Source: an uncultured Acidimicrobiales bacterium
GTDB taxonomy: Bacteria > Actinomycetota > Acidimicrobiia > Acidimicrobiales > Bin134
Direction of reading: 5' to 3'
NCBI GenBank assembly: GCA_951813325.1
Contig: OX638350.1
Location: 2,027,954 to 2,091,953, forward strand
Length of the DNA stretch: 64,000 nt
This document shows positions 19,975 to 35,536 of the stretch, piece after piece (within the stretch, counting starts at the first letter, position 1; each line of letters begins with the position of its first letter). Both the position numbers and the translations under genes were made by a program. The notes beneath the pieces were generated by a model. It saw nothing but the letters and a program-made list of their open reading frames with translations. It did no database searches and was not told the origin of the DNA.

Positions 19975-20019
19975 CGTCTTATGGTGGCACGATCACCCCG
20001 GAGTTGAAAGCATGGTGCC

Positions 20020-22716
20020 GTGGCCGTGAACTTCTCAAACCAGCTGCCGGACACTGATCCGGACGAGACTCGGGAGTGGCTGGACAGCCTCGACGCCGTG
20101 GTCAGCGCCTCCGGCGGACAGCGAGGCCGGTACTTGCTGCGCCAGCTCCTGGACCGGGCCGACGAGCTGGGCATGGGCCTCTCCGGCACGGTGCAGACGC
20201 CGTATGTGAACACCATACCCACCGCCGACCAGCCGTTCTTCCCCGGCGACGAGAACATCGAGCGCCGGATCCGGGCCTTCATCCGGTGGAACGCGGCGAT
20301 GATGGTGGTCAAGGCCAACAAGCGGGCCGACGGCATCGGCGGCCACCTGTCCACCTTCGCCTCGTCCGCCTCCCTCTACGAGGTGGGGTTCAACCACTTC
20401 TTCCGGGGCAAAGAGGACGGGCTGCCCGGTGATGCCATCTACATCCAGGGGCATGCCGCGCCGGGCATCTACGCCCGGGCCTACCTGGAGGGCCGGCTGA
20501 GCGAGGAGCAGCTGGACAATTTCCGGATGGAGATCGGCGGAAGCGGGCTGTCCAGCTACCCCCACCCCCGGCTCATGCCCGACTTCTGGGAGTACCCCAC
20601 GGTGTCGATGGGCCTGGGGGCGATCAACTCCATCTACCAGGCCCGGTTCTACCGCTATCTGCACGACCGCCGTATCGAGGACACCAGCGAGTCGAAGGTG
20701 TGGTGCTTCGTGGGCGACGGCGAGTGCGACGAGCCCGAGACGCTGGGGTCGATCTCGCTGGCCGGCCGGGCCAAGCTGGGCAACCTCATCTGGGTGGTGA
20801 ACTGCAACCTCCAGCGCCTCGACGGCCCGGTGCGGGGCAACGGCAAGGTCATCCAGGAGTTGGAGGGCAACTTCCGGGGCTCGGGCTGGAACGTGATCAA
20901 GGTGATCTGGGGCTCGCGCTGGGACGAGCTGCTGGCCGCCGACGTCGACGGTGTGCTGCTGGAAAAGATGAGGACCACCGTTGACGGCGAGTACCAGCGC
21001 TACGCCACCGAGACCGGCGCCTACATCCGGGAGAACTTCTTCGGGCCCGATCCCCGGCTGCGCAAGATGGTGGCCCATCTGAGCGACCGGGAGCTCGAAG
21101 ACCTGCCCCGCGGCGGCCACGACTATCTGAAGCTGCACGCCGCCTACAAGGCCGCGATCGAGGCCGCCGACCGGCCCACGGTGATCTTGGCCAAGACCAT
21201 CAAGGGCTGGACGCTGGGCGAGGGGCTAGAGGCCCGCAACGCCACCCACCAGATCAAAAAGATGACCACCGCCCAGCTCATGGACCTGCGCTCCCGGCTC
21301 CACCTGGAAGAGGAGATTCCCGCGGAGGCCCTTCAAGACGACGCCAACCCCCCGTACTACAAGCCCCCGCCCGACTCCCCCGAGCACCAATACCTGATGG
21401 CCCGCCGCCGCGAGCTGGACGGGCCGCTGCCCACCCGGGTGGTGAACATCCGCCGGCCCATCAAGCTGCCCGACGACAAGCTGTTCACCGACTACGACGA
21501 GGGGTCCGACGGCCGCCCGGTGTCCACCACCATGGTGTTCACCCAGATGCTGCGCAACATGATGCGAGACGAGGAATTCGGATCCCGGGTGGTGCCCATC
21601 GTCCCCGACGAGGCTCGCACCTTCGGCATGGACTCCCTGTTCCGGGAGTTCAAGATCTATGCCTCTGAGGGCCAGCTCTACGAGCCGGTGGACCATGATC
21701 TGCTGCTGTCCTACGCCGAGGGGCAGGACGGCCAGCTCCTGGAAGAGGGCATCACCGAGGCCGGGTCGCTGGCCTCGTGGACCGCGGCGGCCACCAGCTA
21801 CGCCACCATGGGCGTGCCGATGGTGCCGTTCTACTCCTTCTACTCCATGTTCGGCTTCCAGCGGGTGGGCGACCTGATCTGGTCGGCGGCCGACTCCCGG
21901 GCCCGGGGCTTTTTGATGGGCGCCACCGCGGGGCGCACCACGCTGATGGGCGAGGGGTTGCAGCACCAGGACGGCCACAGCCACCTGCTGGCCTCCACCG
22001 TGCCGGCCTGCTGCGCCTACGACCCGGCGTTCGCCTACGAGCTGGGGGCCATTGTGCGGTCGGGGCTGGACCGGATGTACGGCAACGGCGGCGGGGAGGA
22101 CGTCTTCTATTACATCACCATCTACAACGAGAACTACCGCCAGCCCCGCCGGGCCGATTTCATAAGCGACGAGCACATCCTGTCGGGCCTCTACCAGTGG
22201 AACCACGCGCTGGGCGGCACCGCCCAGCAGGCCTCGATCGTCTTCTCGGGCGCCGCCCACCAGGCCGCCCGCAACGCCCAGGCCGAGCTGGCCGAGCGCT
22301 ACGGGATCGGGGTGGACCTGCTCAGCGCCCCCTCCTTCAAAGCAGCCCGCGAGGAGGCGCTGGAGGTGGAGCGGTGGAACCGTCTGCACCCCGATGAGCA
22401 ACCCCGGGTGCCCATGGTCACCCAGCGGCTCGCCGGAGGCCGCGGCCCGGTGGTGGCGGTCACCGACTACATGGCCCTGGTGCCCGACCAGATCGCCCGC
22501 TGGGTCCCCCGCCGCTTCATCTCGCTGGGCACCGACGGCTTCGGCCGATCCGACACCCGAGAGTCGCTGCGCCGCTTCTTCGAGACCGACGCCCCCAGCG
22601 TGACCTCCGCCGTTTTGAGCGCCCTGGCCGCCGACGGCACCCTCGACGACTCAGTGGCCAAAGACGCCGTCGCCCGCTACAACCTCAACCGCCCCCACTT
22701 CGACCCCACCAGATAG
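20020..22716 (+). CDS. aceE: Pyruvate dehydrogenase E1, homodimeric type
   Basis: Decarboxylates pyruvate with thiamine diphosphate and acetylates the E2 lipoyl group. 898 aa, full length, with a GTG start. The thiamine motif GDGECDEPE (about 232) is followed about 26 residues on by the N in VVNCNLQRLDGPV. Other AceE segments include GHLSTFASSASLYEVGFNHFF, DRKTIKGWTLGEG-like sequence and QHQDGHSH. In Actinobacteria this enzyme works with the nearby E2 and E3 types, encoded 2-6 kb away on the other strand. Confidence 0.95.
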   Translation: MAVNFSNQLPDTDPDETREWLDSLDAVVSASGGQRGRYLLRQLLDRADELGMGLSGTVQTPYVNTIPTADQPFFPGDENIERRIRAFIRWNAAMMVVKANKRADGIGGHLSTFASSASLYEVGFNHFFRGKEDGLPGDAIYIQGHAAPGIYARAYLEGRLSEEQLDNFRMEIGGSGLSSYPHPRLMPDFWEYPTVSMGLGAINSIYQARFYRYLHDRRIEDTSESKVWCFVGDGECDEPETLGSISLAGRAKLGNLIWVVNCNLQRLDGPVRGNGKVIQELEGNFRGSGWNVIKVIWGSRWDELLAADVDGVLLEKMRTTVDGEYQRYATETGAYIRENFFGPDPRLRKMVAHLSDRELEDLPRGGHDYLKLHAAYKAAIEAADRPTVILAKTIKGWTLGEGLEARNATHQIKKMTTAQLMDLRSRLHLEEEIPAEALQDDANPPYYKPPPDSPEHQYLMARRRELDGPLPTRVVNIRRPIKLPDDKLFTDYDEGSDGRPVSTTMVFTQMLRNMMRDEEFGSRVVPIVPDEARTFGMDSLFREFKIYASEGQLYEPVDHDLLLSYAEGQDGQLLEEGITEAGSLASWTAAATSYATMGVPMVPFYSFYSMFGFQRVGDLIWSAADSRARGFLMGATAGRTTLMGEGLQHQDGHSHLLASTVPACCAYDPAFAYELGAIVRSGLDRMYGNGGGEDVFYYITIYNENYRQPRRADFISDEHILSGLYQWNHALGGTAQQASIVFSGAAHQAARNAQAELAERYGIGVDLLSAPSFKAAREEALEVERWNRLHPDEQPRVPMVTQRLAGGRGPVVAVTDYMALVPDQIARWVPRRFISLGTDGFGRSDTRESLRRFFETDAPSVTSAVLSALAADGTLDDSVAKDAVARYNLNRPHFDPTR

Positions 22717-22848
22717 CCGCGATCAATGGAGGCATTGGTTACATCGTGCCCGCCGCCGACGAAGCCAGACCACGACTCGAAGCAGCCGAGCGGCTCGCCG
22801 GGATCCGCCGATGAATGACCATCCCCCACACCGCCCCAAAGCGGCCCC

Positions 22849-23487
22849 GTGACGCGACTCGCCATCGCGGCCGCCACCGCAATCGCCCTGTTGTCAGCCT
22901 GCTCTTCACCCGACCCCGACCCCGCCGACAACCCCACAGCGACGCCACCCGACGCGGCCAACGATCAACCAACCCCACCCGAAGCAACGCCGACGCCGCC
23001 CTCACCCGAAGCCGGAGCAACGCCGACATCTGCGGGTTCACCGCTCGGCGATCCGACCTCAACGCCAATATCCCCCTGGGAACACGCGATGCAACTCATT
23101 GCCGCTATCGAGTCCATCGGCCTCACCGACATCGGTCTAACCAGCACCGGCGGCCCATCCGACGCGGGCGTTTGGGCCAGCACGCCCGACGGCGCCATCA
23201 CCTACCAAATCAGCCTCAATATCTACGGTGTCTTCGGCCCCCTGCCCGAGAGGCTCGAGCCATTCGGAACCTTCGAGCAAACTGGCACAGACACAATCGC
23301 CGGGATCGATCTGAGGATCCTCGACCGCAACGGCTCCGACGTCGCCTGGTTCCAATGCACCCACGATCGAGCGATCGAGGTACGGGCAATCCAGTCGTTC
23401 AGCTCCTCCTCCATCCCCATCGGAACGCTCGACGACGTCAAAGAGCTGGTGCCGGTGCTGTTCTCCGCCCTTGGCTGCACCACATAG
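22849..23487 (+). CDS. Small secreted lipoprotein with Pro/Thr-rich linker
   Basis: 212 aa from a GTG. Signal sequence with lipobox LLSAC (Cys18), then about 60 residues of Pro/Thr/Ala-rich spacer, then a globular domain (about 80-212) containing PWEHAMQLIAAIESIGLTD and four late aromatic/cysteine positions (WFQCTH, LGCTT). The two cysteines may form a disulfide. Family not recognised. It opens the accessory stretch that includes a DsbB-like protein. Confidence 0.7.
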   Translation: MTRLAIAAATAIALLSACSSPDPDPADNPTATPPDAANDQPTPPEATPTPPSPEAGATPTSAGSPLGDPTSTPISPWEHAMQLIAAIESIGLTDIGLTSTGGPSDAGVWASTPDGAITYQISLNIYGVFGPLPERLEPFGTFEQTGTDTIAGIDLRILDRNGSDVAWFQCTHDRAIEVRAIQSFSSSSIPIGTLDDVKELVPVLFSALGCTT

Positions 23488-23784
23488 ACAACAGACGCCC
23501 GCCCCGCGGCAGCCTTTGTTGCGGCCGCCTGTGGTGCCCGCAGCAGCGGGCACCAACACGACCACAGCGATTGGGCTCGTCTATGCCGCCGGCCTCGACG
23601 ACAGCCAACTCCAGCCACCCACCACACCAGCAGACGCCACCACCACCTTGATCACCGCACAACTCACCAGCTTGGAAAACCGCTGGAACCCCGCATAACC
23701 GCCCATCCGCTAGACCCCCCTTATAGAGGAAGTCTCTACGAAAAGGGGGGGGAGCTTCTTGCCTGTTTTGGGTATGCTGATGGT
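23488..23784. other. Intergenic stretch with hairpin and -10 box
   Basis: No convincing gene. A short frame at 23471-23698 has atypical composition and no start signal. The right half holds the hairpin described next and then TATGCT (23773-23778), 6 nt before the dsbB-like GTG, fitting a leaderless -10. Confidence 0.5.
23715..23750. terminator. Large hairpin upstream of the dsbB-like gene
   Basis: CCCCCCTT (23715-23722) pairs with AAGGGGGG (23743-23750). Nested inside is TAGAG-GAAGT-CTCTA. There is no T-run directly after the outer stem on the plus strand, so terminator versus regulatory RNA structure is undecided. It contains homopolymer C and G runs that could slip. Confidence 0.45.
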
Positions 23785-24315
23785 GTGGGTGTTTATGAGG
23801 TTTCAGTTCTTTTTGCTTTGCTGTCTTTGGGGGCTTTGCTTGTGGGTGTCTTGGGTTTGCTAGTTGCTTTGTCTAGCGGTTTTAGGGTTCGGGTTCGGCG
23901 ACTACAGCCAGTGTTGTTGCCCGTGGCTTTGTTGGTGGCGACAGTGGCGACTACCGGAAGCTTGTACTATTCAGAGGTTGCCGGCTACCCGCCTTGCGAG
24001 TTGTGCTGGTACCAGCGGATCTGCATGTACCCGCTTGTCTTGGTCTTGGGGGCAGCGTGGTGGCGGCGCAAGAATTCTAGTGGTTTGTATGCGTTGCCTT
24101 TTGCCGTCGCCGGTCTGGGCGTCTCGGTGTACCATTACCAGCTTCAGTTGTTTCCCGGCCAGAGCTCGTCCCACAACACTGTCGTGTCATGTGCGTTCCA
24201 GTACGTGGATGTCTTCGGGTTTGCCTCTATTCCCTTCATGGCCGGTAGCGGTTTTATCGCCATCACCGGCTTGGTCATCTTATCGTCGCGACTAGCGCGG
24301 CCCGCGCACGGCTGA
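23785..24315 (+). CDS. DsbB-like disulfide bond formation protein
   Basis: 176 aa with four predicted helices (about 8-30, 42-62, 82-92/103-117 and 142-166). The periplasmic/exoplasmic loop has CELCWYQR (Cys71/Cys74), the quinone-linked pair of DsbB. The second loop keeps only Cys136 (VVSCAFQY); the usual partner Cys before it is not visible, so electron transfer to a DsbA partner may differ. No DsbA-like gene is adjacent. Third codon positions are unusually T-rich compared with flanking genes, suggesting acquired DNA. Downstream lipoproteins contain several cysteines. Confidence 0.82.
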   Translation: MGVYEVSVLFALLSLGALLVGVLGLLVALSSGFRVRVRRLQPVLLPVALLVATVATTGSLYYSEVAGYPPCELCWYQRICMYPLVLVLGAAWWRRKNSSGLYALPFAVAGLGVSVYHYQLQLFPGQSSSHNTVVSCAFQYVDVFGFASIPFMAGSGFIAITGLVILSSRLARPAHG

Positions 24316-24422
24316 TCCGCGCCGCTTGTTGTCGCCAACCCGGATCTTTGACAGGAACGGAAGCGCCGGCCCTGCCACCGGCCCTGCGCCGGGTTGGCTT
24401 GTCGCTTTGCCGGATCTGATCC

Positions 24423-25526
24423 TCAAAGCTGTTGTCGCGCCGGAAGGTAGGTATCGACGAGGCCGCCGAACCGGTTGCGGAGCCATTGGGGATCAAGCGA
24501 TGACCCGTTGTCGAGCCCGAGCCCGGCGCGTATGTGGGCTATCGTCACATGCGCGACCAGCGGCCACAATTCGACGGGGTCGGTGTCTTCAGGCAAACAG
24601 CCGCACTCAGCCAGCTCCAAAAACCACCGGCTCACACCGAGCTCGTCGGTTTGGTGCAACAGATCGGCTTGTTGCATCAGACCGCCCTGGTCGCGAATAG
24701 CAACGCACGCGTCGCTGAAGCTGCTGTGCCCAGCACCAGACAGAACCACCAACGCGACCGGCGGGTCCGCCGAGGCCACGAAACTCCGCACGCCCTCTAT
24801 GGGCACGGCCACATCGCCGTCAGCAGCTACTATCAACCCAGGCACGCTCGGGCCGGTGCTTTGCCCATCGAGCACCGGCGCCCAGCCCACCCAAGCCACA
24901 ACCCCTTCCCGCAAAGCAGCCTGCTGAGCGGTCACAGCCCCAGCCGAGTGCCCCAAAGCGGCCAGCGGGCTGTCGGGGCCCACGAGGCCGGCCAACGGGT
25001 CAGTGCAAGCAGCCATGGCCCGCATCAGCTCGACCGCGGCGAACAAATCGTCCACGCTAATAGCAGAGATCAGCTCTGCTGACTTGCGGCCATGGACTGC
25101 TATCCGGTCCCGTTCGTGATGGTCTGGCGCCACCACCGCGAACCCCCACGACGCCAGCCTGATCATGAGCTCAGAGCAATCGGTGGGATACCCGCCAAAG
25201 CCGTGGCTGAACATCACAACCGGAACCGGGCCAGAGACCGGGGCCGGATCGGCAAAAACACCGTCAAAGCCGAACACTCCCACCGGGCCACCAGCGCTAC
25301 CGGCAACCTCGGCAACAGGCGGGCGCATCGCCTCATCAAAAGCGTCCAAACCTGAATACGTCCACGGAACCGCCGCCTCAACCGGGCTGACCTCAGCCGG
25401 ATAATAGATGTAGACAACCCGATCGGCCACATCCCGGCCGACCAGCCGCCGAGTGGCAACCCCAACCGAATGCGCGCCACGCCCGCCATAATCAAAAACC
25501 CCAACCGGCCCACCAGACCCAACCAT
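24423..25526 (-). CDS. Alpha/beta hydrolase, PAF-acetylhydrolase/dienelactone hydrolase-like
   Basis: 367 aa from the ATG at 25526. Oxyanion-loop SHGFGG (107-112), nucleophile LGHSAGA (Ser194), a late Asp in AADGDVAVP and His in GAGHSSF give a complete catalytic triad. The substrate is unknown. The frame stays open to 25706 and reads a hydrophobic Gly/Cys-rich stretch just before Met1 (HLGLLFGLGCFGCG); a non-ATG start there would create a lipoprotein-like signal. This would fit export, but I see no ribosome-binding site that decides it. Coding strand is G/T-rich. Confidence 0.78.
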   Translation of the reverse strand: MVGSGGPVGVFDYGGRGAHSVGVATRRLVGRDVADRVVYIYYPAEVSPVEAAVPWTYSGLDAFDEAMRPPVAEVAGSAGGPVGVFGFDGVFADPAPVSGPVPVVMFSHGFGGYPTDCSELMIRLASWGFAVVAPDHHERDRIAVHGRKSAELISAISVDDLFAAVELMRAMAACTDPLAGLVGPDSPLAALGHSAGAVTAQQAALREGVVAWVGWAPVLDGQSTGPSVPGLIVAADGDVAVPIEGVRSFVASADPPVALVVLSGAGHSSFSDACVAIRDQGGLMQQADLLHQTDELGVSRWFLELAECGCLPEDTDPVELWPLVAHVTIAHIRAGLGLDNGSSLDPQWLRNRFGGLVDTYLPARQQL

Positions 25527-25881
25527 CACCCAAACGCTCCCACAACCAAAACAACCCAAGCCGAACAACAGCCCGAGATGACACCACAGCCACCACCCGT
25601 CCGGCAAACAACCGAACCGCTCCCACAACCCCGACCCAACACAGAGGCGAAAAACACGGAAACCATCACCCCACCAAAATACACCAAAACAGCGGACACC
25701 GCCCAACCAACCGCTGGCGGCGATCCGCTAGAGTTCACCGGGAAACACATCGCAAACAGATCTCGGTCATCCTCACTTGACCCACATAGGAGGGCAAGCT
25801 CTACCAGTGGCCGCGACAAAGACCATTGCAGACGGTTTGGGCTGAGTCCCGCCGGTGGAATTCGCCGTGCTTCTGCGGTTT
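25527..25881. other. Strand-skewed intergenic stretch
   Basis: 355 bp of A/C-rich (plus strand) sequence between the hydrolase and the end of the paralog array. No gene is supported on either strand; the possible N-terminal extension of the hydrolase covers 25527-25706. The skew continues from the hydrolase and changes sharply at the array border near 25886. Confidence 0.5.
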
Positions 25882-26406
25882 CTAAGAAAACTCGACGGCC
25901 AGTTCAGGAATTGGCTTCGCCCTCCTCAACCGCATCGACAGACACAGGGACGGCACTGTCGGGCTCGCCGGCCAGCCCCCAATACCGGCGAGGGTTTCCG
26001 CTCTTTTGGCCAGTCTTTCATCTCGCTGCTCAAGCATCGTTTCCCAACAGCCTGCCCGAAACAACAGAACACGAACTGAGAAGACATTCACGAACGTCAA
26101 CACCCATAAGGCCACGAATACCAGAAAAGAAATCACCCCCGGCGAAAAAGTAAGAAAACCCAAAGCAGCAATCCCAGACAGACTGCCAAATAGCCAAATG
26201 GCCCAGAATCGCCAAGCCGGCTTGAACGGGTCTTCGGTATACACGTCTATGAGCCATTTCTTGACCCGCCCGTAGTGCTCGGGCGGTGTGATCTCCATGG
26301 AAGGAATCATGCAGTACCAGGTTTCGGCGATTATCTGCCGCCAGCTCAGAGCTGCGGCGTAGTCGGCTCGCGATGGAAAGTCTTGCTCCCTGACTTTTTT
26401 CATCAT
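25882..26406 (-). CDS. TPPEHYG-family membrane protein, copy A1
   Basis: 174 aa from ATGATG at 26406. Unrecognised family, named here for its shared motif. Layout: cytosolic N-terminus MMKKVREQDFPSRADYAAAL, ITPPEHYGRVKKWL (about 50-60), two adjacent hydrophobic helices (about 72-92 and 96-116), then LLFRAGCWETMLEQRDERLAKR and a charged tail. Its start overlaps by 4 nt the stop of a leftover lipoprotein C-terminus (C1). Nearly identical to copy A2, differing by about two residues over the shared length. Last gene of the array. Confidence 0.75.
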   Translation of the reverse strand: MMKKVREQDFPSRADYAAALSWRQIIAETWYCMIPSMEITPPEHYGRVKKWLIDVYTEDPFKPAWRFWAIWLFGSLSGIAALGFLTFSPGVISFLVFVALWVLTFVNVFSVRVLLFRAGCWETMLEQRDERLAKRAETLAGIGGWPASPTVPSLCLSMRLRRAKPIPELAVEFS

Positions 26407-26601
26407 CCGACTGTCTCCACGCAATAGTCGATTCTGTGCTCGATGATAGTGGTGTAGCCGCTATCTTCAAATATCTCTGAGACGATTGCTGTTTGCTTTG
26501 TCCACTTCGTGTCGGTGGCGCTCAGCCAGGGGGGCGCCAAGCAGCTTGTGACGCCGGAGATGCTCAACAACACGTCGTCATCTTGGCTGTTGAGCCACGC
26601 G
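26403..26601 (-). pseudogene. C1: orphan C-terminal fragment of the array lipoprotein
   Basis: Encodes 66 residues about 90% identical to the last 66 residues of the full-length protein at 28880-30480 (AWLNSQDDDVLLSISGVTS... to HRIDYCVETVG). Homology stops at 26601. There is no signal sequence or own start beyond a chance ATG at 26609. The stop keeps the same ATGA overlap with the following A gene as in the intact locus. It is a by-product of tandem duplication, though it might be expressed by read-through. Confidence 0.75.
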
Positions 26602-26661
26602 GCACCCACACCGACGGCGTTCGCCGGGGAAGCTCATGCCGTTTCCCTGCGGCAACAATTT

Positions 26662-27090
26662 CTATGACATCTCCTCTTGTCTTCGCGGGCCGACCGACTT
26701 CTGATCCCGCTTCTCCAAAGCCAGCTCCCAACCACCCGCCCGAAACCACATCACCTGCGCCAGTACAGTAACGAGAATAAGCGGAATCAAGCCCACAATC
26801 ACCCCGGGCCTAGCGGCCCACATACCAAAATAGCTCTGGAATGCATAACTCACTACTGTTGCCGGGCCAAGACCCAATGGGATCAGCCACAACCAAGTAC
26901 CACCTATCGTGCCGTCAGGCTTGGCAGCATAGGCAGCGCGTGCAAGCCAGCGTTTGAATGGACCGTAATGCTCAGGTGGTGTCACCCCTCTCATACGAGT
27001 TAAAAATAAAGTACCTCTGCATATCTCCCACCAGTTGAGGACGGCTGCGAACTCGGCCCTCGTGGGATAGTCCTGCTCCTGTTTTCTCAT
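26662..27090 (-). CDS. TPPEHYG-family membrane protein, copy B1
   Basis: 142 aa. N-terminus MRKQEQDYPTRAEFAAVLNWW and C-terminus WFRAGGWELALEKRDQK match B2 closely and match the A proteins at the motifs YPTRAEFAA, TPPEHYGPFKRWL and FRAGxWE. The two-helix core (about 75-120) is diverged from B2. Starts 2 nt after the A2 stop, so it is co-translated. Function unknown; both ends are probably cytosolic. Confidence 0.75.
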   Translation of the reverse strand: MRKQEQDYPTRAEFAAVLNWWEICRGTLFLTRMRGVTPPEHYGPFKRWLARAAYAAKPDGTIGGTWLWLIPLGLGPATVVSYAFQSYFGMWAARPGVIVGLIPLILVTVLAQVMWFRAGGWELALEKRDQKSVGPRRQEEMS

Positions 27091-27092
27091 CG

Positions 27093-27644
27093 CTACCCCA
27101 CCGCTCGATGCCGCACACAATGGGAAAACTCGACGGCTAGCTCAAGAATTGGCTTCGCCCTCCTCAACCGCATCGACAGACACAGGGACGGCACTGTCGG
27201 GCTCGCCAGCCAGCCCCCAATACCGGCGAGGGTTTCCGCTCTTTTGGCCAGCCTTTCATCTCGCTGCTCAAGCATCGTTTCCCAACAGCCTGCCCGAAAC
27301 AACAGAACACGAACTGAGAAGACATTCACGAACGTCAACACCCATAAGGCCACGAATACCAGAAAAGAAATCACCCCCGGCGAAAAAGTAAGAAAACCCA
27401 AAGCAGCAATCCCAGACAGACTGCCAAATAGCCAAATGGCCCAGAATCGCCAAGCCGGCTTGAACGGGTCTTCGGTATACACGTCTATGAGCCATTTCTT
27501 GACCCGCCCGTAGTGCTCGGGCGGTGTGATCTCCATGGAAGGAATCATGCAGTACCAGGTTTCGGCGATTATCTGCCGCCAGCTCAGAGCTGCGGCGTAG
27601 TCGGCTCGCGATGGAAAGTCTTGCTCCCTGACTTTTTTCATCAT
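27093..27644 (-). CDS. TPPEHYG-family membrane protein, copy A2
   Basis: 183 aa, from ATGATG at 27644. Same layout as A1 and nearly identical in sequence, but it runs nine residues longer (…EFSHCVRHRAVG) and ends 2 nt before the B1 start. The start overlaps the stop of the orphan fragment C2. Nucleotide identity with A1 is almost complete over at least 750 bp including non-coding DNA, so the duplication is recent or kept uniform by gene conversion. Confidence 0.75.
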   Translation of the reverse strand: MMKKVREQDFPSRADYAAALSWRQIIAETWYCMIPSMEITPPEHYGRVKKWLIDVYTEDPFKPAWRFWAIWLFGSLSGIAALGFLTFSPGVISFLVFVALWVLTFVNVFSVRVLLFRAGCWETMLEQRDERLAKRAETLAGIGGWLASPTVPSLCLSMRLRRAKPILELAVEFSHCVRHRAVG

Positions 27645-27839
27645 CCGACTGTCTCCACGCAATAGTCGATTCTGTGCTCGATGATAGTGGTGTAGCCGCT
27701 ATCTTCAAATATCTCTGAGACGATTGCTGTTTGCTTTGTCCACTTCGTGTCGGTGGCGCTCAGCCAGGGGGGCGCCAAGCAGCTTGTGACGCCGGAGATG
27801 CTCAACAACACGTCGTCATCTTGGCTGTTGAGCCACGCG
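27641..27839 (-). pseudogene. C2: second orphan C-terminal fragment of the array lipoprotein
   Basis: A copy of C1, displaced by 1238 bp. It encodes the same 66 residues of the lipoprotein tail, lacks the upstream signal, FN3-like and glycine-rich parts, and ends in a 4-nt overlap with the A2 start. It lies between the B2 stop and A2. Confidence 0.75.
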
Positions 27840-27899
27840 GCACCCACACCGACGGCGTTCGCCGGGGAAGCTCATGCCGTTTCCCTGCGGCAACAATTT

Positions 27900-28328
27900 C
27901 TATGACATCTCCTCTTGTCTTCGCGGGCCGACCGACTTCTGATCCCGCTTCTTTAAAACCTGCTCCCAACCACCCGCCCGAAACCACATCACCTGCGCGG
28001 TAATCGAGATGGCCAGAAGCGGGATCCCACCCACAACAGCGCCGGGCATTGCCGCCCAAATGCCGAGAAATCTGCCACAAGCGACACCTGCTGGTACTAT
28101 TGTTGCAAGACCCAGTGGAATAGCCCACAGATGAGTGCCGCTGGGTTTACCATCCGGCTTAAAGGGACACCCGGCGCGCACAAGCAAGCGTTTGAATGGA
28201 CCGTAATGCTCAGGTGGTGTCACCCCCCTCAAGCCAGTGAAAACAAAAGTAGCTTTAGATATCTCCCACCAGTTAAAAGCGGCGGCGAACTCGGCCCTCG
28301 TGGGATAGTCCTGCTCCTGTTTTCTCAT
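27900..28328 (-). CDS. TPPEHYG-family membrane protein, copy B2
   Basis: 142 aa, same length as B1. The first about 20 and last about 30 residues are almost identical to B1, while the middle (about 23-115), including both helices, differs at many positions (for example FNWWEISKATFVF against LNWWEICRGTLFL). This pattern of conserved ends and a variable membrane core is what diversifying selection or recombination would leave. It follows A3 by 51 bp. Confidence 0.75.
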   Translation of the reverse strand: MRKQEQDYPTRAEFAAAFNWWEISKATFVFTGLRGVTPPEHYGPFKRLLVRAGCPFKPDGKPSGTHLWAIPLGLATIVPAGVACGRFLGIWAAMPGAVVGGIPLLAISITAQVMWFRAGGWEQVLKKRDQKSVGPRRQEEMS

Positions 28329-28361
28329 CGCTGTCCCACCGCTCAATGCTACACACAATGG

Positions 28362-29078
28362 GAAAACTCGACGGCGGGTTCAGGAATTGGCTTCGCCCTC
28401 CTCAACCGCATCGACAGACACAGGGACGGCATTGTCGGGTTCGCCGGCCAGCCCCCCAATACCGGCGAGGGTTTCCGCTCTTTTGGCCAGCCTTTCATCT
28501 CGCTGCTCAAGCATCGTTTCCCAACAGCCTGCCCGAAACAACAGAACACGAAGTGAGAAGACATTCACGAACGTCAACACCCATAAGGCCACAAATACCA
28601 GAAAAGAGATCACCCCTGGCGAAAGAACAAGAAAACCAAAAGCAGCAAGCACAGATAGACTGCCGAATAGACAAATGGTCCAGAATCGCCAAGCCGGCTT
28701 GAACGGGTCTTCGGTAAACACGTCTATGAGCCATTTCTTGACCCGCCCGTAGTGCTCGGGCGGTGTGATCTCCGTCGAAGGAATCATGCAGTACCAGGTT
28801 TCGGCGATTATCTGCCGCCAGCTCAGAGCTGCGGCGTAGTCGGCTCGCGATGGAAAGTCTTGCTCCCTGACTTTTTTCATCATCCAACTGTCTCCACACA
28901 ATGGTCGATCTCGTGCTCGATGATAGTGGTGTAGCCGCTATCTTCAAATGTCTCTGAGACGATTGCTGTTTCCTTTGTCCACTTCGTGTCGGTGGCGCTC
29001 AGCCAGGGGGGCGCCAAGCAGCTTGTGACGCCGGAGATGCTCAACAACACGTCGTCATCTTGGTTGTTGAGCCACGCG
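28362..29078. repeat. Partial unit R3 at the head of the array
   Basis: Carries A3 and the true C-terminal codons of the full-length lipoprotein. Homology to R1/R2 ends at 29078 (R1 26601), where the intact gene continues upstream. This makes R3 the likely parental copy. Confidence 0.85.
28380..28883 (-). CDS. TPPEHYG-family membrane protein, copy A3 (frameshifted C-terminus)
   Basis: 167 aa; the ATG at 28883 overlaps the lipoprotein stop (ATGA). N-terminal 140 residues match A1/A2 apart from scattered changes in the helices (SLSVLAAFGFLVLSPG against SLSGIAALGFLTFSPG). A run of six C at 28452-28457 replaces five in A1/A2 and shifts the frame, so the tail reads LAGEPDNAVPVSVDAVEEG instead of the A1/A2 tail. 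With five C it would end at 28349, close to the B2 start. Confidence 0.72.
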   Translation of the reverse strand: MMKKVREQDFPSRADYAAALSWRQIIAETWYCMIPSTEITPPEHYGRVKKWLIDVFTEDPFKPAWRFWTICLFGSLSVLAAFGFLVLSPGVISFLVFVALWVLTFVNVFSLRVLLFRAGCWETMLEQRDERLAKRAETLAGIGGLAGEPDNAVPVSVDAVEEGEANS

Positions 29079-30480
29079 ACGCCCATAGCGGCGGCGACCC
29101 CCAAAGCAGCCCCGACCACAGTCCCCACGAGCCCCAGAGATGACCCTACAGTCGCGCCGGTTCGTACCATCACATACGCAGACACGCTAACCGCGCCGGT
29201 GACTGTCGCACCGACGATGATGCTGACTCCATTTTCTTCTAGTGCGTTGTCCCACCATGTGTCGCCGGCTTCGGGCAGCGGCTGGTGCCATGGCAGGTCG
29301 GGGATGTCGGATTGGTCGGAGCAAGTGCCGTCGGTTGTGTGGTCTCCGCAGTGACGGTGGGCCTCAACGCTGGCGTTGCCGGTGGCTGTCTCGTGCAGAT
29401 GCGGCTCGTCGGCTCCGTGGGTCCGGCCCGTGCCGTGCTGGAAGTACTCGAGCACCTTGTCGTCGTCGATCTCCACATCCAAGTGCTCAGTCCAATAGAT
29501 GGTGCAAGTGCGGGTCCAGCCAGTGTCAGCCGCGTTTCTGACGGTAGGCGAGCAATTGTCGCTGCCTAGCTCAGGGTCTATGCTTTCGCTCAAGACATAG
29601 CGTTCCAGGCCGGGATTCACCCATATGTGGGCACAGACGCCCAGCATGCATCCCGACTCCCATTCTCCATTGGGACTTGTCCAGTCGGGATCATCGGGAT
29701 TGTCGGGGTCGAGGGGGTCGCAGTCCACGGACGCGGTTGGGGAGGGGTCGCCCCAGTCACCAGCGGTGTGGGCTTGGACCTGGAAGGCGTAGGTTTGGCC
29801 TTCTTGTCTTTGGGCGTGGACCCGGCGTTGGCTGCCGGTTCCGCCGAGGCCGGTGTAGATGATGCCGATGGTCTGGTAGTTGTCGGCTCCGGCCATGTGG
29901 TCCCATTCCAGGGTGACCACGCCGTGGCTGTTGCACGACGCGGACACGCTCTGGGGAACCCACCTCGGACAGTACTCGGAGGTCTCAGCCCACGCGGAGA
30001 ACTCGGTGTTCCCTGCGACTACGACGTCGGACCGCTCCCTTATCCTGATCTCGTGGGTGTGGTGGGGGGTCGGATTATTGTACGTGTAGGCTGCCGGCGG
30101 ATTCGCAGGAGCATATTCAGCGTTTGCAACATGCTCGCCGTTGATCTCCACTTCGAAGAGTCTCAGCGGCACATAGATGCCGGGGATCGGGTCAGTGTTC
30201 CAAGTGATAACCAGCTCTCCGCTGACAGCGCAATCAGCTTGCAAACCAGTGGGCGCGGGCAACGCTGCCGGCACCGGGGTCGCTATCGGGGGGGGGGGGG
30301 GGGTGGCGGAGGGGGTGGCGGGGGCGCCGATGTCGGGGTGGGCGCCGATGTCGGGGTGGGCGCCGATGTCGGGGTGGGCGTCGGGCTCGGCGTTCCGCAA
30401 TCGAAGAGGCAGCCTGAGGCGAAGACAGCGCCGACAACGAAAATGGCCATCGCGACCAGGCCGCGGCGGTGCTTGTTCAT
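28880..30480 (-). CDS. Array lipoprotein, out of frame at a poly-C tract (candidate phase-variable gene)
   Basis: Begins MNKHRRGLVAMAIFVVG with lipobox FASGC (Cys24), then PTPTSA repeats and polyproline encoded by a C-run. With the 16 C seen, this frame stops at 30283 (TAG). The downstream frame is open from above the tract to 28880. Seventeen or 14 C would join them into one protein (533 aa with 17). Downstream parts: two FN3-like beta domains (about 77-165 and 175-260), a Cys/His-rich region, a long Gly-rich hydrophobic segment (about 415-470; GSSLGLVGTVVGAALGV), and a 66-residue tail that is also found as orphan copies C1/C2. It is surface-anchored by prediction; function unknown. It overlaps A3 by 4 nt. 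A sequencing error in the tract must be excluded. Confidence 0.7.
30288..30303. repeat. Homopolymer run of 16 G (poly-C in the coding strand)
   Basis: Lies inside the lipoprotein reading frame, between the PTPTSA repeats and the FN3-like domains. Runs this long are prone to slipped-strand mispairing. Gain of one or loss of two bases restores the frame; the present length leaves the gene off. Confidence 0.9.
30324..30377. repeat. Three perfect 18-bp tandem repeats
   Basis: Units at 30324, 30342 and 30360. In the lipoprotein frame (minus strand) they encode PTPTSA repeats, a flexible stalk after the lipobox. Being a multiple of three, copy changes alter stalk length without shifting frame. Confidence 0.85.
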
Positions 30481-30545
30481 CCCAGCACCCGGGGGGCGAA
30501 GCCCGCGGCAACACTGGCAACCGCAACGACCAGACGGCGTTTCAT
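30477..30545 (-). CDS. 22-aa leader peptide before the array lipoprotein
   Basis: ATG at 30545 reads MKRRLVVAVASVAAGFAPRVLG and its TGA overlaps the lipoprotein ATG (ATGA). The lipoprotein ATG has only a weak ribosome-binding site of its own, so initiation may depend on this short frame. The peptide looks like half of a signal sequence and could also be a decayed earlier start. Confidence 0.4.
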   Translation of the reverse strand: MKRRLVVAVASVAAGFAPRVLG

Positions 30546-30553
30546 GGTCTATC

Positions 30554-30582
30554 TCACTACTTTTCTTTTTTGGCCTTGTCAA
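30554..30582 (-). promoter_or_regulatory. Predicted promoter of the lipoprotein/paralog array
   Basis: On the minus strand TTGACA (30582-30577) is followed after 17 nt by TAGTGA (30559-30554). The -35 is a perfect consensus, the -10 is weak. It sits about 10 bp upstream of the leader peptide ATG, consistent with a short 5' leader. No other promoter of comparable quality is seen between the array genes. Confidence 0.5.
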
Positions 30583-31047
30583 GCCCTTGCCGAAAAAACC
30601 CGACCCCACACACCCCGCCCCTCACCGCGCCACCCGTCAAAACCCTCCAGATGGCCAGACGAATCGCCGCCCGAAACAACACCCAGGCGGCGTTTGCCGG
30701 CGCGGCGGCTGAGGCTGACGTGGCCCGTCGGATCACCGTCGACGCAGGAGCGGCCAACCAGGAAGCCTGTGCCGGCGCCCGCACCGTCTGCGTGCAGTCG
30801 GGCCCCGGCCCCTGCTGGACTCGAACGGCTCCACCGACTGGGCAGGCTTGTCTTCGAGCAGACACAGGCCGTGCCAGCCCATGTGAGCACCCCGGCCCGG
30901 CGATTCGGCCGCGACCTGCGAGATTGCATTGAGGCCAGCCGTCTGGCCGAAGGCTGGCACCGGGTGATCGGCGCCGCTGGTGAGAACAGCGCCAACGCCA
31001 GGAAACGCCTCATACCAGTTTGAGGACAGCGCCAACGCCAAAAAGCG
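30583..31047. other. Gene-poor stretch with decayed coding fragments
   Basis: No intact gene. A plus-strand frame from ATG 30651 starts plausibly (MARRIAARNNTQAAFAG) but then runs into Cys/Pro-rich noise. A second plus frame to 31023 ends KRLIPV. An imperfect direct repeat (CAGCGCCAACGCCA at about 30988 and 31027) lies just before the amidohydrolase stop. Probably remnants at an island junction. Confidence 0.4.
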
Positions 31048-32247
31048 TCAGGCCGGTTGGAGCTGGTTCAACCCGGTGGTGTTGTCGAGCAGGATCTTCT
31101 TTTTGGCAGCGTCGTCGAAGCCCTTGTCCTTGAGCTCCACCAGGTAGTCCAGGGGCTGGGGCATGCCCTCGATGTGGGGCCAGTCGCTGCCGAAGATCAC
31201 CCGGTCGGCGCCCATGTAGTGGACCACCTCGGCCACGTCGTCCTCCCAGAAGGGGTTGATCCACACGTGCTGGCGGAACAGCTCGGCGGGATCCTCGCCG
31301 AACCACCCGATGTTCTTCTTGGCGGCCTGGCCCAGCTTGCGGAACAGGTCGCCCAGGAACTGCGACCCGTTCTCCACCGAGGCCACCCGAAGGTTGGCGA
31401 ACCGCTCGAAGAGCTTCTCCAGCGCCAGGGTGATCAGGTAGTCGTAGGCGGCCCGCTCGATGTTGTAGGCCTTGATGCTGGGCTTGTACTTGCGCTGCTT
31501 GGCCATCCCCGACGAGGCGAATCCGTCCACGTCATAGCCCTGGGTGGTGTAGCCGCTGTCTCCGGCGTGGACCACCGCGCAGATGCCGGCCTCGTTGACC
31601 CGGGCCCAGAACGGGTCGAAGTGCTCGTCGGCCGGCGACTTGAACCCATCAGCAGTCCATACCGCGGCAGGGCGCATCACGATGGTGCGGGCGCCCTTGT
31701 CCAAAACCCACTCCAGCTCCTGGCAGGCCCAGTCCACGTCGCCCAAAGCGATGTAGGGAGCGGCAAAGATGGTGTCGCGGTAGGCGAAGCCCCACTGCTC
31801 GTCCAGCCAGCGGTTGAACCCGCCGAACAGGGCGCACACTGCTTCGATGTCTTCTTTGACGAGCTCCTCGTAGAGCACGCCCAGCGTGGGGAACAGCCAC
31901 ACCGACTGGAGCCCCTGCTCGGCCACCTTGTCAACCCGGGCATCCCGGTCGTCCACGTAGAAGCGGGGCAGCCGCTCCCGCTTGCTCAGCATGTCAGCCG
32001 GATTCCGCCCCTCGGGGTTGCCCCGGAAGTAGTCGTGCAAGGCGCCGGGCAAAGCGATCGGATCCCAGGTGGGGTTTACCACGGCGTGGCTGATGGCGCC
32101 GCCCACCAGGTGGTAGCGGCGGCCGTTCACCTCGGCCCACTGCACGCAGCGGGGCTGCATGGCCGGGTCCACGTGACGGGTGAAGGCGTCCACCGCCTCG
32201 TAGTAGTGGTTGTCGCAGTCGAAGGGGATGTAACCAAGCTCGTCCAC
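31048..32247 (-). CDS. Amidohydrolase-2 family metal-dependent hydrolase
   Basis: 399 aa TIM-barrel hydrolase/decarboxylase-like protein. N-terminal metal motif DCDNHYYE, central His in AVVHAGDSG, and the late FGSDWPHIEGM Asp/His pair fit the amidohydrolase-2 (ACMSD-like) family common in mycobacteria and other Actinobacteria. The natural substrate is unknown, probably an aromatic or cyclic acid. No signal peptide. It stands between the array and the TA cluster. Confidence 0.85.
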   Translation of the reverse strand: MDELGYIPFDCDNHYYEAVDAFTRHVDPAMQPRCVQWAEVNGRRYHLVGGAISHAVVNPTWDPIALPGALHDYFRGNPEGRNPADMLSKRERLPRFYVDDRDARVDKVAEQGLQSVWLFPTLGVLYEELVKEDIEAVCALFGGFNRWLDEQWGFAYRDTIFAAPYIALGDVDWACQELEWVLDKGARTIVMRPAAVWTADGFKSPADEHFDPFWARVNEAGICAVVHAGDSGYTTQGYDVDGFASSGMAKQRKYKPSIKAYNIERAAYDYLITLALEKLFERFANLRVASVENGSQFLGDLFRKLGQAAKKNIGWFGEDPAELFRQHVWINPFWEDDVAEVVHYMGADRVIFGSDWPHIEGMPQPLDYLVELKDKGFDDAAKKKILLDNTTGLNQLQPA

Positions 32248-32309
32248 GAAACCAGGCTACCGCTGGGCCCTTGGCTGTGCCTGCTTGGACGACGGCTCGG
32301 GGGGCACAG

Positions 32310-32502
32310 CGACATATCCGCGGCCAACAAGGCCATCGGCAACAAAGCCCTCGAGCTGATGGGCCGCACCATGGCCCAAGGGCTGGCCCGAGAGCACAAC
32401 GTGATCGCCCACCAGTCCCCCGCCGCCCAAGAATTCGGCCGCCTCATCCGCACAGAGGGCTTCAAAACCGCCGTCGCCTGGCAAGCCGAGCAATTCGGCT
32501 AG
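32310..32502 (+). pseudogene. C-terminal fragment resembling enoyl-CoA hydratase
   Basis: About 63 residues (DISAANKAIGNKALELMGRT... LIRTEGFKTAVAWQAEQFG) that read like the last helices of a crotonase-family protein, with no start, active site or N-terminal 200 residues. Composition is coding-like. The family assignment is tentative. It supports past rearrangement next to the amidohydrolase. Confidence 0.4.
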
Positions 32503-32551
32503 GGGGCGCCTTCGGCCGCACGCATCGCGCCATGCGGAGCACTGCTCCCGA

Positions 32552-32974
32552 CTATTCCGACTGCCCCTTCTCCTCCTTATGGGCCCAGACCAATTCCACG
32601 TCGTACTGGTCAAACACCGAGTCGGAGGTCATCAGGGGAATGTCCAAGTCTCTGGACTGAGCGATCAATAGGCGGTCAAACGGATCGCGATGGTTCAGGG
32701 GCAGCGCGCCGGCTTGCAGGGTGTGCGTGTGCTCGATGGCTATTGCCGTCAGGCCGGCGCCGGCGATCCTGCTGGGAACATACGCGGCTGGACGTTCCGG
32801 AAGGTCGAGGCGTCCCAAAGCGTGTTTGATGGCGATCTCCCATGACGACACCGCAGAGAACAGCACGTCTCGGGTTGGATCGACGAGTATCGACTGGGCC
32901 GTTGGGGAAAGCCTCTGCGGTGCGGCGTGCATCCACAAGAAGACCTGCGTATCCAACAGGACAGCCAAAGTCAC
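32552..32974 (-). CDS. PIN-domain toxin
   Basis: 140 aa. PIN residues: Asp8 in VLLDTQVFLW, Glu in SSWEIAIKHALGRL, Asp in HRDPFDRLLIAQS and MTSDSVFD near the end. This SSWEIAIK/RDPFDR subtype is the usual partner of Phd-like antitoxins. The start overlaps the antitoxin stop (32971-32974). It probably cleaves RNA when released; the target is unknown. Confidence 0.88.
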   Translation of the reverse strand: MTLAVLLDTQVFLWMHAAPQRLSPTAQSILVDPTRDVLFSAVSSWEIAIKHALGRLDLPERPAAYVPSRIAGAGLTAIAIEHTHTLQAGALPLNHRDPFDRLLIAQSRDLDIPLMTSDSVFDQYDVELVWAHKEEKGQSE

Positions 32975-33204
32975 CGCCCCTCAAAGGCGTCGAGCAGATC
33001 GTCGGGAAGGGGGTCGTTGAAGTCATCCGGCACGTCAAAGCGCCCGACATCTCGCCCCAGCTGGCGCGGCCCTCCCGATATTGCGCTCACCAGCTTCGCC
33101 ACCGGCGTCCCAGAGTTGGTGATCACCACTTCTTCTCCCGCATGCGCCTTCTGGATCAGCTTGGAGAGCGTTGTCTTCGCCTCGTGTATCCCCACGGTCA
33201 CCAT
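32971..33204 (-). CDS. Phd-type antitoxin
   Basis: 77 aa: VGIHEAKTTLSKLIQKAHAGEEVVITNSGTPVAKLV is the complete Phd DNA-binding and dimer domain, followed by a short acidic tail that would bind the toxin. -10 box TATGCT (33216-33211, minus) lies 6 nt before the ATG, so the transcript is probably leaderless. A palindrome just upstream is a candidate autoregulatory operator. Confidence 0.88.
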   Translation of the reverse strand: MVTVGIHEAKTTLSKLIQKAHAGEEVVITNSGTPVAKLVSAISGGPRQLGRDVGRFDVPDDFNDPLPDDLLDAFEGR

Positions 33205-33235
33205 GCCACGAGCATACCAGCGTCTGGCGCATTGC

Positions 33236-33253
33236 TAGCTAACTAATTAGCTA
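33236..33253. promoter_or_regulatory. Palindrome upstream of the Phd/PIN operon
   Basis: TAGCTAA-CTAA-TTAGCTA, perfect 7-bp arms, 32 bp before the antitoxin start, in the otherwise GC-rich region. Spacing places it over the -35 of the proposed promoter. Phd dimers bind such sites in known systems. Confidence 0.5.
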
Positions 33254-33289
33254 AACAAAGAACGCCCTTCCAACCCTTCCCGACAGCCG

Positions 33290-33500
33290 AACCAGACTGA
33301 CCCCTAACAGCCGGCACACGAGCACCGGCCGGTCTCCGCCCGGGGCGTCGGCAAACCAGATCTCACCTCGCGGCATCAAGGCAGTCAAACCAGTCAGGCC
33401 AGTCTTCAGCCGGCCCCCAATACTGGGCCGCGCTCATAGCCAACTCCCGTTCAGTCAGCGGCATCGCCTGGTAGATCTCAGCACCGCGTTCCATCAGAGC
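33290..33500 (-). pseudogene. Decayed MazF/antitoxin pair
   Basis: The minus strand reads RGEIWFADAPGGDRPVLV, matching the start of the intact MazF-type toxin (RGEVWFAQTPSGDRPVLV). Next to it, AEIYQAMPLTERELAM...YWGPAEDWPDW matches the C-terminus of its antitoxin. The toxin is truncated after about 25 residues and the antitoxin lacks its DNA-binding half. It is a partial duplicate of 33756-34308. Confidence 0.65.
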
Positions 33501-33582
33501 AGGCTGTCCAGTGCTTGGTGGAAGTGGATCAGGGCCACCTCGTGACGGCCGACCAGGGTCTCGGTGACCGGGCCTGTCGTCC
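33494..33582 (-). pseudogene. Duplicate of the Rieske oxygenase C-terminus
   Basis: Encodes VTETLVGRHEVALIHFHQALDSLL, close to the end of the intact Rieske gene (VTETLVGRHEVALVHFHRALDELL). It directly adjoins the decayed antitoxin tail, so the whole 33290-33582 block is a shortened copy of the 33756-34480 neighbourhood. Confidence 0.65.
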
Positions 33583-33755
33583 GCTCCGGCAGGTGGTGGG
33601 CAATCAAGGCTAACAACCTGCCCGGTCGCCACTCCCAGGCGAGGCGCCGCGCCAAAATCGAGTCAACTGCCCGAGACGCCATCGCATGGTGGTTCGGCGC
33701 CGACGAAACCGAAGTAGGCCCGCTAGTCGTGAACTCCGTAGAGGCAGACTGATTC

Positions 33756-34067
33756 TCAGCACCCAGTGGCGGCCTTGAGCGCCTGACAGGCCTCGTCCAT
33801 GCGGGCGGGGCTGAGCTGAGCCACCCGGCGACGAAAGGCGTGGCGTGGCGTGGTGTGGATGTTGTCGAAGTTGACCACGCATTCCACGGGCACGCCGTCG
33901 TCAGGGGTCAAAGGCAGTTCAGAGGCAATGCCCCGAATCGTTCGGGTCAGCCCAGCGACGACCACACCGCCGATGCGGGCGGCAACGGGGTCGCGGGTGA
34001 GCACGAGCACCGGCCTGTCGCCACTCGGGGTTTGGGCGAACCAAACCTCACCCCGCTGAGTCATCAT
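33756..34067 (-). CDS. MazF/PemK-type endoribonuclease toxin
   Basis: 103 aa from ATGATG at 34067. MTQRGEVWFAQTPSGDRPVLVLTRD is the MazF beginning with the catalytic Arg, LTRTIRG supplies the second conserved basic loop, and NFDNIHTTPR follows. A sequence-specific mRNA or rRNA cleaver when freed from its antitoxin. Its start overlaps the antitoxin end by 20 bp. Confidence 0.86.
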   Translation of the reverse strand: MMTQRGEVWFAQTPSGDRPVLVLTRDPVAARIGGVVVAGLTRTIRGIASELPLTPDDGVPVECVVNFDNIHTTPRHAFRRRVAQLSPARMDEACQALKAATGC

Positions 34068-34308
34068 CAACACCCCAGTCAGACCAGTCTTCCGCCGGCC
34101 CCCAATATTCAATGACGTTCAAGGCCATTTCTTCCTCGGTAACCGGCATCGCCTCGTAGATTTCGGCATCGCGCACCGCCAAGATGGCGTTGATGTGACG
34201 ACGAAGCGCCTCGCGGAACAACTCCGAGAGGGCGACTTCCATGTATTCGGCTGTCTCCCTGGCTCTTTCCGCCTCTTCGGGAGACACCCGGAAGCTGAGC
34301 ATCGTCAT
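34048..34308 (-). CDS. Ribbon-helix-helix antitoxin of the MazF pair
   Basis: 86 aa: MLSFRVSPEEAERARETAEYMEVALSELFREALRRHI is a ribbon-helix-helix DNA-binding domain, followed by the toxin-binding tail VRDAEIYEAMPVTEEEMAL...YWGPAEDWSDW. The tail motif recurs in the decayed copy at 33363-33500. The promoter below gives a leaderless mRNA. Confidence 0.82.
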   Translation of the reverse strand: MTMLSFRVSPEEAERARETAEYMEVALSELFREALRRHINAILAVRDAEIYEAMPVTEEEMALNVIEYWGPAEDWSDWGVDDDSAG

Positions 34309-34316
34309 ACAACAGG

Positions 34317-34345
34317 ATGCTAATGTATGACAATTGCAGAGACAA
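34317..34345 (-). promoter_or_regulatory. Promoter of the RHH/MazF operon
   Basis: TTGTCT (34345-34340), 17-nt spacer, TAGCAT (34322-34317), then 8 nt to the antitoxin ATG at 34308. Good sigma-70-type spacing and an implied leaderless transcript. The region also contains CATAC/GTATG half-sites (34306-34311 and 34324-34329) that an RHH dimer could bind. Confidence 0.55.
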
Positions 34346-34363
34346 GTCCCTTTTGCCCATCAA

Positions 34364-35536
34364 TTAGGGATTTTGCCTCTCCCTGATTCGCCAGCTCTTG
34401 TCGTCTAGCAGCTCGTCTAGAGCTCGGTGGAAGTGAACGAGGGCTACTTCGTGGCGGCCGACCAGGGTCTCGGTGACCAGGCCCGAGTCGAGGGACTGCT
34501 GGATCTTCACCGCTTGGGGGAAGTCCTCGCCGGCGCCCACTCGCTGGTGAAGCTCCAGGGTGCGCTCGTAGTGGGGGCGGGTGCAGTCGGTAACCGGCTC
34601 GGGGGTGTACAGGGTCATGATGACATCGGTGTGGTCGACGGCGGTGGGCAGGAACTGGTACACCGCGAAGTGGTCCACGCTGTGGCTCAAGATGGTGTTG
34701 GGGGCGATCAGATACTCCACGGTGGCCCGGCTGAGCAGGTCCCACTCGTCCTCAGGCACCTCGGCCAGCTCCAAAATCGACTTCTGGCAGGTCTGGAACC
34801 GCAGGTTGGGGCCGTACCCCTTGTAGGTCATCGGTTGGGACAGGTAGTAGCGCCCCACCGTCGCGCGATGCAGCGAGAACACGTGGTACGACTCCAAGAA
34901 CGTGTCCACCAGCAGCTTCCAGTTGCAGGGCCAGCTCGACTCCCACCGGTCGAACGGGACGTAGCCGCCCACGCCGAAATCGCCGAGATCGACGGCGGCG
35001 TCGCCAACCAGTCTGCTGGCGTCAATCGGCTCGTCGCCCTCGGCCCTCACGAATACCAGCCCACAGGCCTCGCCCACCGCCACCGGTACCAGCCCCAGAT
35101 CTGACTCGTCGGTCCCGGCAAACCCCTCCCCCGCCTGGGGTCGGGCCAGCAGCGACCCGTCGAGCCGGTAGGTCCAGGCGTGGAACGGGCACCGCAGCGA
35201 CGCCGCCCCCGACCCGCACCCGCTCACCACCGAGGAGGCCCGATGGCGGCACACGTTGCGAAACCCCCGCAGAACCCCGTCGTCGCCCCGCACCACCACT
35301 ACGGGCACCCCTCCGGCAGTGAGCGACACGTAGTCGCCCGGCATGGCCACAGCCCCCGACAAACAGGCCACCACCGGGCGGCGGCGGAACAGCGCCTCCT
35401 GCTCGGCCCGCCAATGGCCTTGGCCGATGTACACCTCGGCCGGCAGCGCCAGCACGTCGTCGGCCAGCTGGGTGGTGCCCGCGGCGTGGTGGGCCAGCAG
35501 CTCCCGGATCAACTCCATCTGGGTCTGTTGCCGCAC
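34364..35536 (-). CDS. Rieske [2Fe-2S] ring-hydroxylating oxygenase, alpha subunit
   Basis: 390 aa. Rieske domain (about 50-150) with Cys96, His98, Cys116 and His119 (CRHR...CPFHAW). The catalytic domain has the mononuclear-iron pattern DTFLESYHVFSLH with its two His. No beta subunit or reductase is adjacent, so partners must lie elsewhere or it is a single-component KshA/phthalate-type enzyme. The substrate is unknown. Part of its 3' end is duplicated at 33494-33582. Confidence 0.88.
   Translation of the reverse strand: MRQQTQMELIRELLAHHAAGTTQLADDVLALPAEVYIGQGHWRAEQEALFRRRPVVACLSGAVAMPGDYVSLTAGGVPVVVVRGDDGVLRGFRNVCRHRASSVVSGCGSGAASLRCPFHAWTYRLDGSLLARPQAGEGFAGTDESDLGLVPVAVGEACGLVFVRAEGDEPIDASRLVGDAAVDLGDFGVGGYVPFDRWESSWPCNWKLLVDTFLESYHVFSLHRATVGRYYLSQPMTYKGYGPNLRFQTCQKSILELAEVPEDEWDLLSRATVEYLIAPNTILSHSVDHFAVYQFLPTAVDHTDVIMTLYTPEPVTDCTRPHYERTLELHQRVGAGEDFPQAVKIQQSLDSGLVTETLVGRHEVALVHFHRALDELLDDKSWRIRERQNP

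Follow-up and report, generated by a model that had tools for sequence, protein, structure and literature searches.

The window, a stretch of 64,000 nucleotides, belongs to a genome assembled as a single contig of 3.59 Mb. Its minus strand carries, in the direction of transcription, a lipoprotein-like gene followed by A3, B2, C2, A2, B1, C1, and A1 (Table 1). These genes form an array with a repeat unit of 1238/1239 nt and sharp boundaries. The 81-nt junction between a B gene and the stub behind it was found at its two known places and nowhere else in the genome, and an Rfam scan of positions 25400-30900 gave no match to known structured-RNA families. The neighbourhood of the array is mobile: the segment 23734-25696 is copied elsewhere in the same genome, about 1.4 Mb away (L032, 5029-6990; 99.7% identical), and this copy likewise adjoins a disrupted relative of the lipoprotein gene. 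A small lipoprotein-like gene at 22849-23487 has relatives at L033 (about 90% nucleotide identity) and at L032. Diverged direct repeats (73-83%) are present at 33317-34483, and near them, at 32552-33204, there are small ORFs that were judged by eye to be toxin-antitoxin-like.

Table 1. Genes and repeat features of the array (positions in the window).
Feature	Position	Strand	Remarks
Lipoprotein-like gene, FN3-containing	28880..30480	-	Signal peptide ATG at 30480
A3, hydrophobic small protein of two-TM type, putative immunity gene	28380..28883	-	Start overlaps the stop of the intact tail
B2, homologue of A	27900..28328	-	32% identity to A3
C2, headless tail stub	27641..27847	-	No Shine-Dalgarno
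A2, near-identical to A1	27093..27644	-	C-terminus altered by a 1-nt G-run difference versus A3 and G014
B1, homologue of A	26662..27090	-	Mosaic relative to B2
C1, headless tail stub	26403..26609	-	Identical to C2
A1, last A gene	25882..26406	-	Repeat homology stops at 25886
700-nt identical block	26015-26714 = 27253-27952		A1/C1/3' end of B1 versus A2/C2/3' end of B2

A preliminary description of this DNA had claimed that C1 and C2 encode only the last 66 residues of the lipoprotein, that they are identical to each other and about 10% different from the intact tail, and that each shares 4 nt with the A gene that follows. All of this was borne out: the 66 residues match the lipoprotein end, both stubs lie inside a 700-nt block free of mismatches, they depart from the intact tail at 6 of 66 homologous residues (9%), and each TGA stop overlaps an ATG as ATGA. 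The same overlap joins the intact tail to A3 and is also found in a relative, G014. Since C1 and C2 lie within one identical block, they were counted as one independent observation and not as two. Each stub is an open frame of 68 codons starting from GTG, and 10 of 69 codons (12 nt) differ from the intact tail. In a simulation, the probability that no stop arises was 0.62 after 12 random substitutions and 0.79 after six, so an open frame is expected by chance and its openness is no evidence of selection; selection for the open frame of the stub was rejected on these grounds. The preliminary description had held that absence or decay of the fragments in close relatives, together with a lack of translation, would count against it, and comparable stubs were indeed found in none of 21 congeners (other genomes of the genus), a comparison made at genus level.

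The lipoprotein (~530 residues) consists of a lipobox signal peptide, a poly-C tract, an FN3 region, a His/Cys-rich domain, a Gly/Ala-rich hydrophobic stretch, and the 66-residue tail, in this order. The fn3 match is weak (E 0.00097, under Pfam's cut-off). Two hydrophobic stretches precede the tail, in which both cysteines (C230 and C270) are invariant. A GxxxGxxxG pattern is present in five of six family members and also in 7-32% of shuffles of those five, so support for a glycine zipper is modest. A and B are homologous to each other (32-37% identity), and each of these proteins contains one or two long hydrophobic segments by hydropathy. An AlphaFold model of A consists of two long helices (pLDDT 66), and modelling of the lipoprotein end gave a poor result (pLDDT 40). 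Searches for toxin or immunity families in Pfam, NCBIfam, PADLOC, and PHROGs gave no match at trusted score, the sub-threshold fn3 being the only one. Searches of the PDB gave nothing under E 0.088 by sequence and no relative by fold (best E 3.2, for a query model of pLDDT 66). A viral origin of the family was considered and rejected, two scans of viral contigs having given 19 and 33 pattern matches and 0 confirmed relatives.

As assembled, the lipoprotein gene is not intact, since its signal and its body are in different frames. The two frames are left unjoined at a run of 16 C on the coding strand (16 G on the plus strand, 30288-30303) located between the signal peptide and the lipoprotein body. 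The lipobox (...FASGC, judged by eye) lies in the signal and is thus out of frame with the body. The whole genome contains four C/G runs of at least nine, with lengths of 9, 10, 16, and 16, against about 208 runs of at least nine and 0.08 of at least 16 expected from a base-frequency model. The second 16-C run (in the region L057, 7230-7930; G000:C1 near 1797914) has no further counterpart of its length in the genome. It lies immediately within what seems to be the start of a secreted, small Gly/Ala-rich protein, and a small TM gene follows. This second secreted protein has relatives in G001, G007, and G012 with differing small TM neighbours. In the G001 counterpart, a similar start (TTGACA...TACAGT...ATGACA) is likewise followed by a C run in this position, a shorter one. 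For each of the three C-tract genes, the frame is closed with the run as assembled and would be open at one in three run lengths. To judge from their sequence, the poly-C tracts suggest phase variation, homopolymer errors in the assemblies being an alternative.

A-type genes were detected in five of 99 genomes, our own included (the others being G005, G013, G014, and G017), which makes 4 of the 21 congeners, and a profile of the lipoprotein C-terminal domain run on the 22 genomes of the genus found the same five. Two identical sets of 4 in 21 have a chance of 1/5985 when the relatedness of the genomes is ignored. A follows the lipoprotein gene directly in each of the four relatives. Among 395 genomes of the class the A family was found in two (G000 and G013) and in none outside the genus, and the C-terminal domain was found in 4 of 397 genomes of the order, all of one genus; a match in G055, outside the genus, spans only residues 56-260, the FN3 part. 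In G014 the lipoprotein and A genes are joined by the ATGA overlap and there is no stub. The A-linked lipoprotein of this genome is itself headless at its 5' end, without a signal peptide, and is one of a row of FN3 genes that are interspersed with small TM genes of other kinds; by analogy, this row has the layout of orphan-module arrays. FN3 genes at three places (G014 C71, G014 C69, and G017 C505) have differing tails and differing small TM neighbours. As far as their sequences tell, the A-linked tails are too alike for toxin swapping to show directly.

We consider it probable that both stubs derive from the 3' end of the lipoprotein gene, truncated and carried along as passengers of a tandemly amplified and partly homogenised unit in a polymorphic-toxin-like locus. 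Of the three options offered by the preliminary description, this agrees with passive scars, the best supported one. A module consisting of the tail 3' end, A, and B would have been amplified in tandem behind the main gene, and the copies would then have been partly homogenised by recombination. The surface lipoprotein, with its Gly-zipper stretch and tail, would be a membrane-acting effector, and A and B would be its small membrane immunity proteins. C1-A1 and C2-A2 would then be headless orphan modules, with A as the part retained and expressed, and we infer that the stub protein is dispensable. This interpretation has to accommodate that neither a recognised toxin or immunity family nor a PDB relative was found. 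The main rival is a non-toxin reading, which we regard as possible, at a clearly lower probability: A and B would serve as membrane partners, either anchor or chaperone, for an adhesion lipoprotein with FN3, which may be used in life with a host. It is consistent with the weakly matched FN3 domain, with the lack of a recognised toxin domain, and with one congener record that corresponds to the marine group Sva0996, which some papers treat in a sponge context. However, immunity is the better fit for a single effector followed by several divergent paralogues, and for other tails followed by small TM genes of other kinds. The stubs would remain duplication scars under this rival too.

The start signals point to how the tail ends may have come to accompany A. 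A GGAG-type Shine-Dalgarno sequence lies at -12, inside the tail codons, for A1, A2, A3, and the A gene of G014; it is missing at the A genes of G005, G013, and G017, and the B genes also lack a Shine-Dalgarno. With this signal inside the last tail codons, A copies that can be expressed retain the tail end and the ATGA overlap; being inherited with the start of A, the overlap requires no separate selection. Under the passenger reading, a copied A would thus bring the tail end along with its ribosome-binding site. The earlier proposal that the stubs serve as translation entry points therefore holds in a narrow sense, as regards the position of A's own signal; it fails for the stub itself, which starts about 50 nt past the B stop with no Shine-Dalgarno, signal peptide, or hydrophobic stretch. 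A broader version, that the stub has been retained as the segment that makes expression of every A copy independent of the main gene, is in our view rather unlikely. Its last ~65 nt would combine a promoter-like pair (TTGAAG-16-TATCAT) with A's Shine-Dalgarno; the pair is present in 3/3 tails, ending 36 nt upstream of A's ATG, and, in addition to the Shine-Dalgarno within the tail, every extra A copy is preceded by a tail stub. Nevertheless, the three promoter-like sites are copies of one, their number (three) compares with 1.5 (sd 1.2) expected, the ~65 nt needed fall far short of the 207 nt of the stub, and conservation of the segment in the intact gene is accounted for by coding constraint.

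The passenger reading was further examined by polarising the changes with G014 as reference. On the orphan branch there were 8 changes in the 207 nt of the tail versus 4 in the 420 nt of A (Fisher p 0.024; p 0.10 once three ambiguous sites are assigned to that branch), and on the intact branch 5 in 207 versus 10 in 420 (p 1.0); a direct 2x2 comparison of the branches gave p 0.13. Based on this contrast, and on few changes, constraint on the tail may be looser than on A within the orphan modules; as a support of the passenger reading, the contrast loses significance when the ambiguous sites are moved. Compared with A3 and G014, both A1 and A2 have lost 1 nt from a G run, and their last residues are altered by this loss. 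Between intact and orphan copies, the dS of tail and A is 0.08-0.10. The B1 and B2 genes are near-identical at their ends (dS 0.2-0.35), and their middle has a dS of 1.97 and ~55-60% nucleotide identity. This value misfits one simple duplication and, set against that of A and the tail, indicated that a single clean duplication cannot produce the array: either a diverged B piece entered, or recombination homogenised the C-A blocks.

Judging by the 700-nt identical block and the mosaic B genes, the array recombines, and this would be compatible with the stubs acting as gene-conversion templates through which the intact tail is varied, in antigenicity or in specificity, as would the stub-derived Tyr of the last I-x-Y-C motif, which is also found in a distant G014 tail. 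A role of the stubs as conversion donors had also been put forward in the preliminary description. It was rejected, since the 13 differing sites (stub derived at 8, intact tail at 5) are scattered and form no tract; moreover, two identical stubs would hold one stored variant only, and we regard such a template function as very unlikely. That the stub peptide is made and acts in the cytosol, as a decoy or as a co-factor for A, would agree with the frame being open in both stubs (one observation) but is hardly credible, given that an open frame is expected by chance, that the stub has no start signal, and that on the orphan branch the stub has accumulated more changes than A.

The stubs in themselves are ordinary. 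Tentatively, and with a probability well below that of the passenger reading itself, the locus may represent a new actinobacterial (Acidimicrobiia) antibacterial system, in which a phase-variable surface lipoprotein, attacking membranes through its Gly-zipper stretch, would be combined with an amplified immunity array whose start signals lie in the stubs, and a second Gly-rich/immunity pair would follow the same tract logic. If so, immunity would stay on while the poly-C tract switches the effector off, and the same would apply to the second, unrelated secreted Gly-rich protein and its immunity partner elsewhere in the genome. The poly-C tracts would offer a testable case for phase-variable weapons with non-variable immunity.

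Our reading of the function, with an effector at the surface, immunity genes coding for membrane proteins, and headless orphan modules, is drawn by analogy with CDI/Rhs orphan modules, SitA, and Cdz. Tandem paralogous immunity-type genes in the same orientation and with short gaps, as observed here, are also found in homogeneous polyimmunity loci, which according to PMC3482391 typically lack toxin genes or cassettes. Unlike those loci, the extra units here carry an effector stub and an effector gene lies upstream. Like the Cdz proteins of Caulobacter, which PMC5380434 describes as surface-associated Gly-zipper proteins of 84-86 aa exported by type I secretion and paired with a small transmembrane immunity protein, the candidate effector would combine a Gly-zipper stretch with small membrane partners. 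In contrast to Cdz, it is a lipoprotein-like protein of ~530 residues, and no type I genes were noticed by eye among the ORFs of 20000-34000. SitA of myxobacteria resembles the present case in being a lipoprotein effector with its cognate gene directly downstream (PMC5562445); unlike in SitA, no nuclease-type toxin domain was recognised here and the partner genes code for small membrane proteins.

A close resemblance in layout is to the orphan cdiA-CT/cdiI and rhs-CT/rhsI modules, in which, according to PMC3150448, a main effector gene is followed on the same strand by a headless 3' end and an immunity-type gene. Here too a headless 3' fragment lies directly upstream of A, the putative immunity gene, behind the main gene. 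There are also differences: the stubs share the sequence type of the main tail, are 66 residues long, and contain no hydrophobic stretch, and, unlike in CDI, the effector is actinobacterial and lipoprotein-like, at a locus known from its sequence and not as a two-partner system. The VENN motif of CDI is absent from 6/6 C-terminal halves, and for this reason we consider that the locus would work like CDI and do not file it as a member. PMC3150448 also reports that orphan cdiA-CT fragments are generally devoid of initiation signals, yet the orphan immunity protein is produced. This trait is matched here by A genes with GGAG at -12 and C stubs without any such signal. If our reading is right, the orphan-module logic of CDI/Rhs would extend to a lineage and a protein class, its family unnamed, for which no description was found in the literature searched, and the location of the immunity ribosome-binding site within the last codons of the effector would be a plain reason why stubs accompany copied immunity genes.
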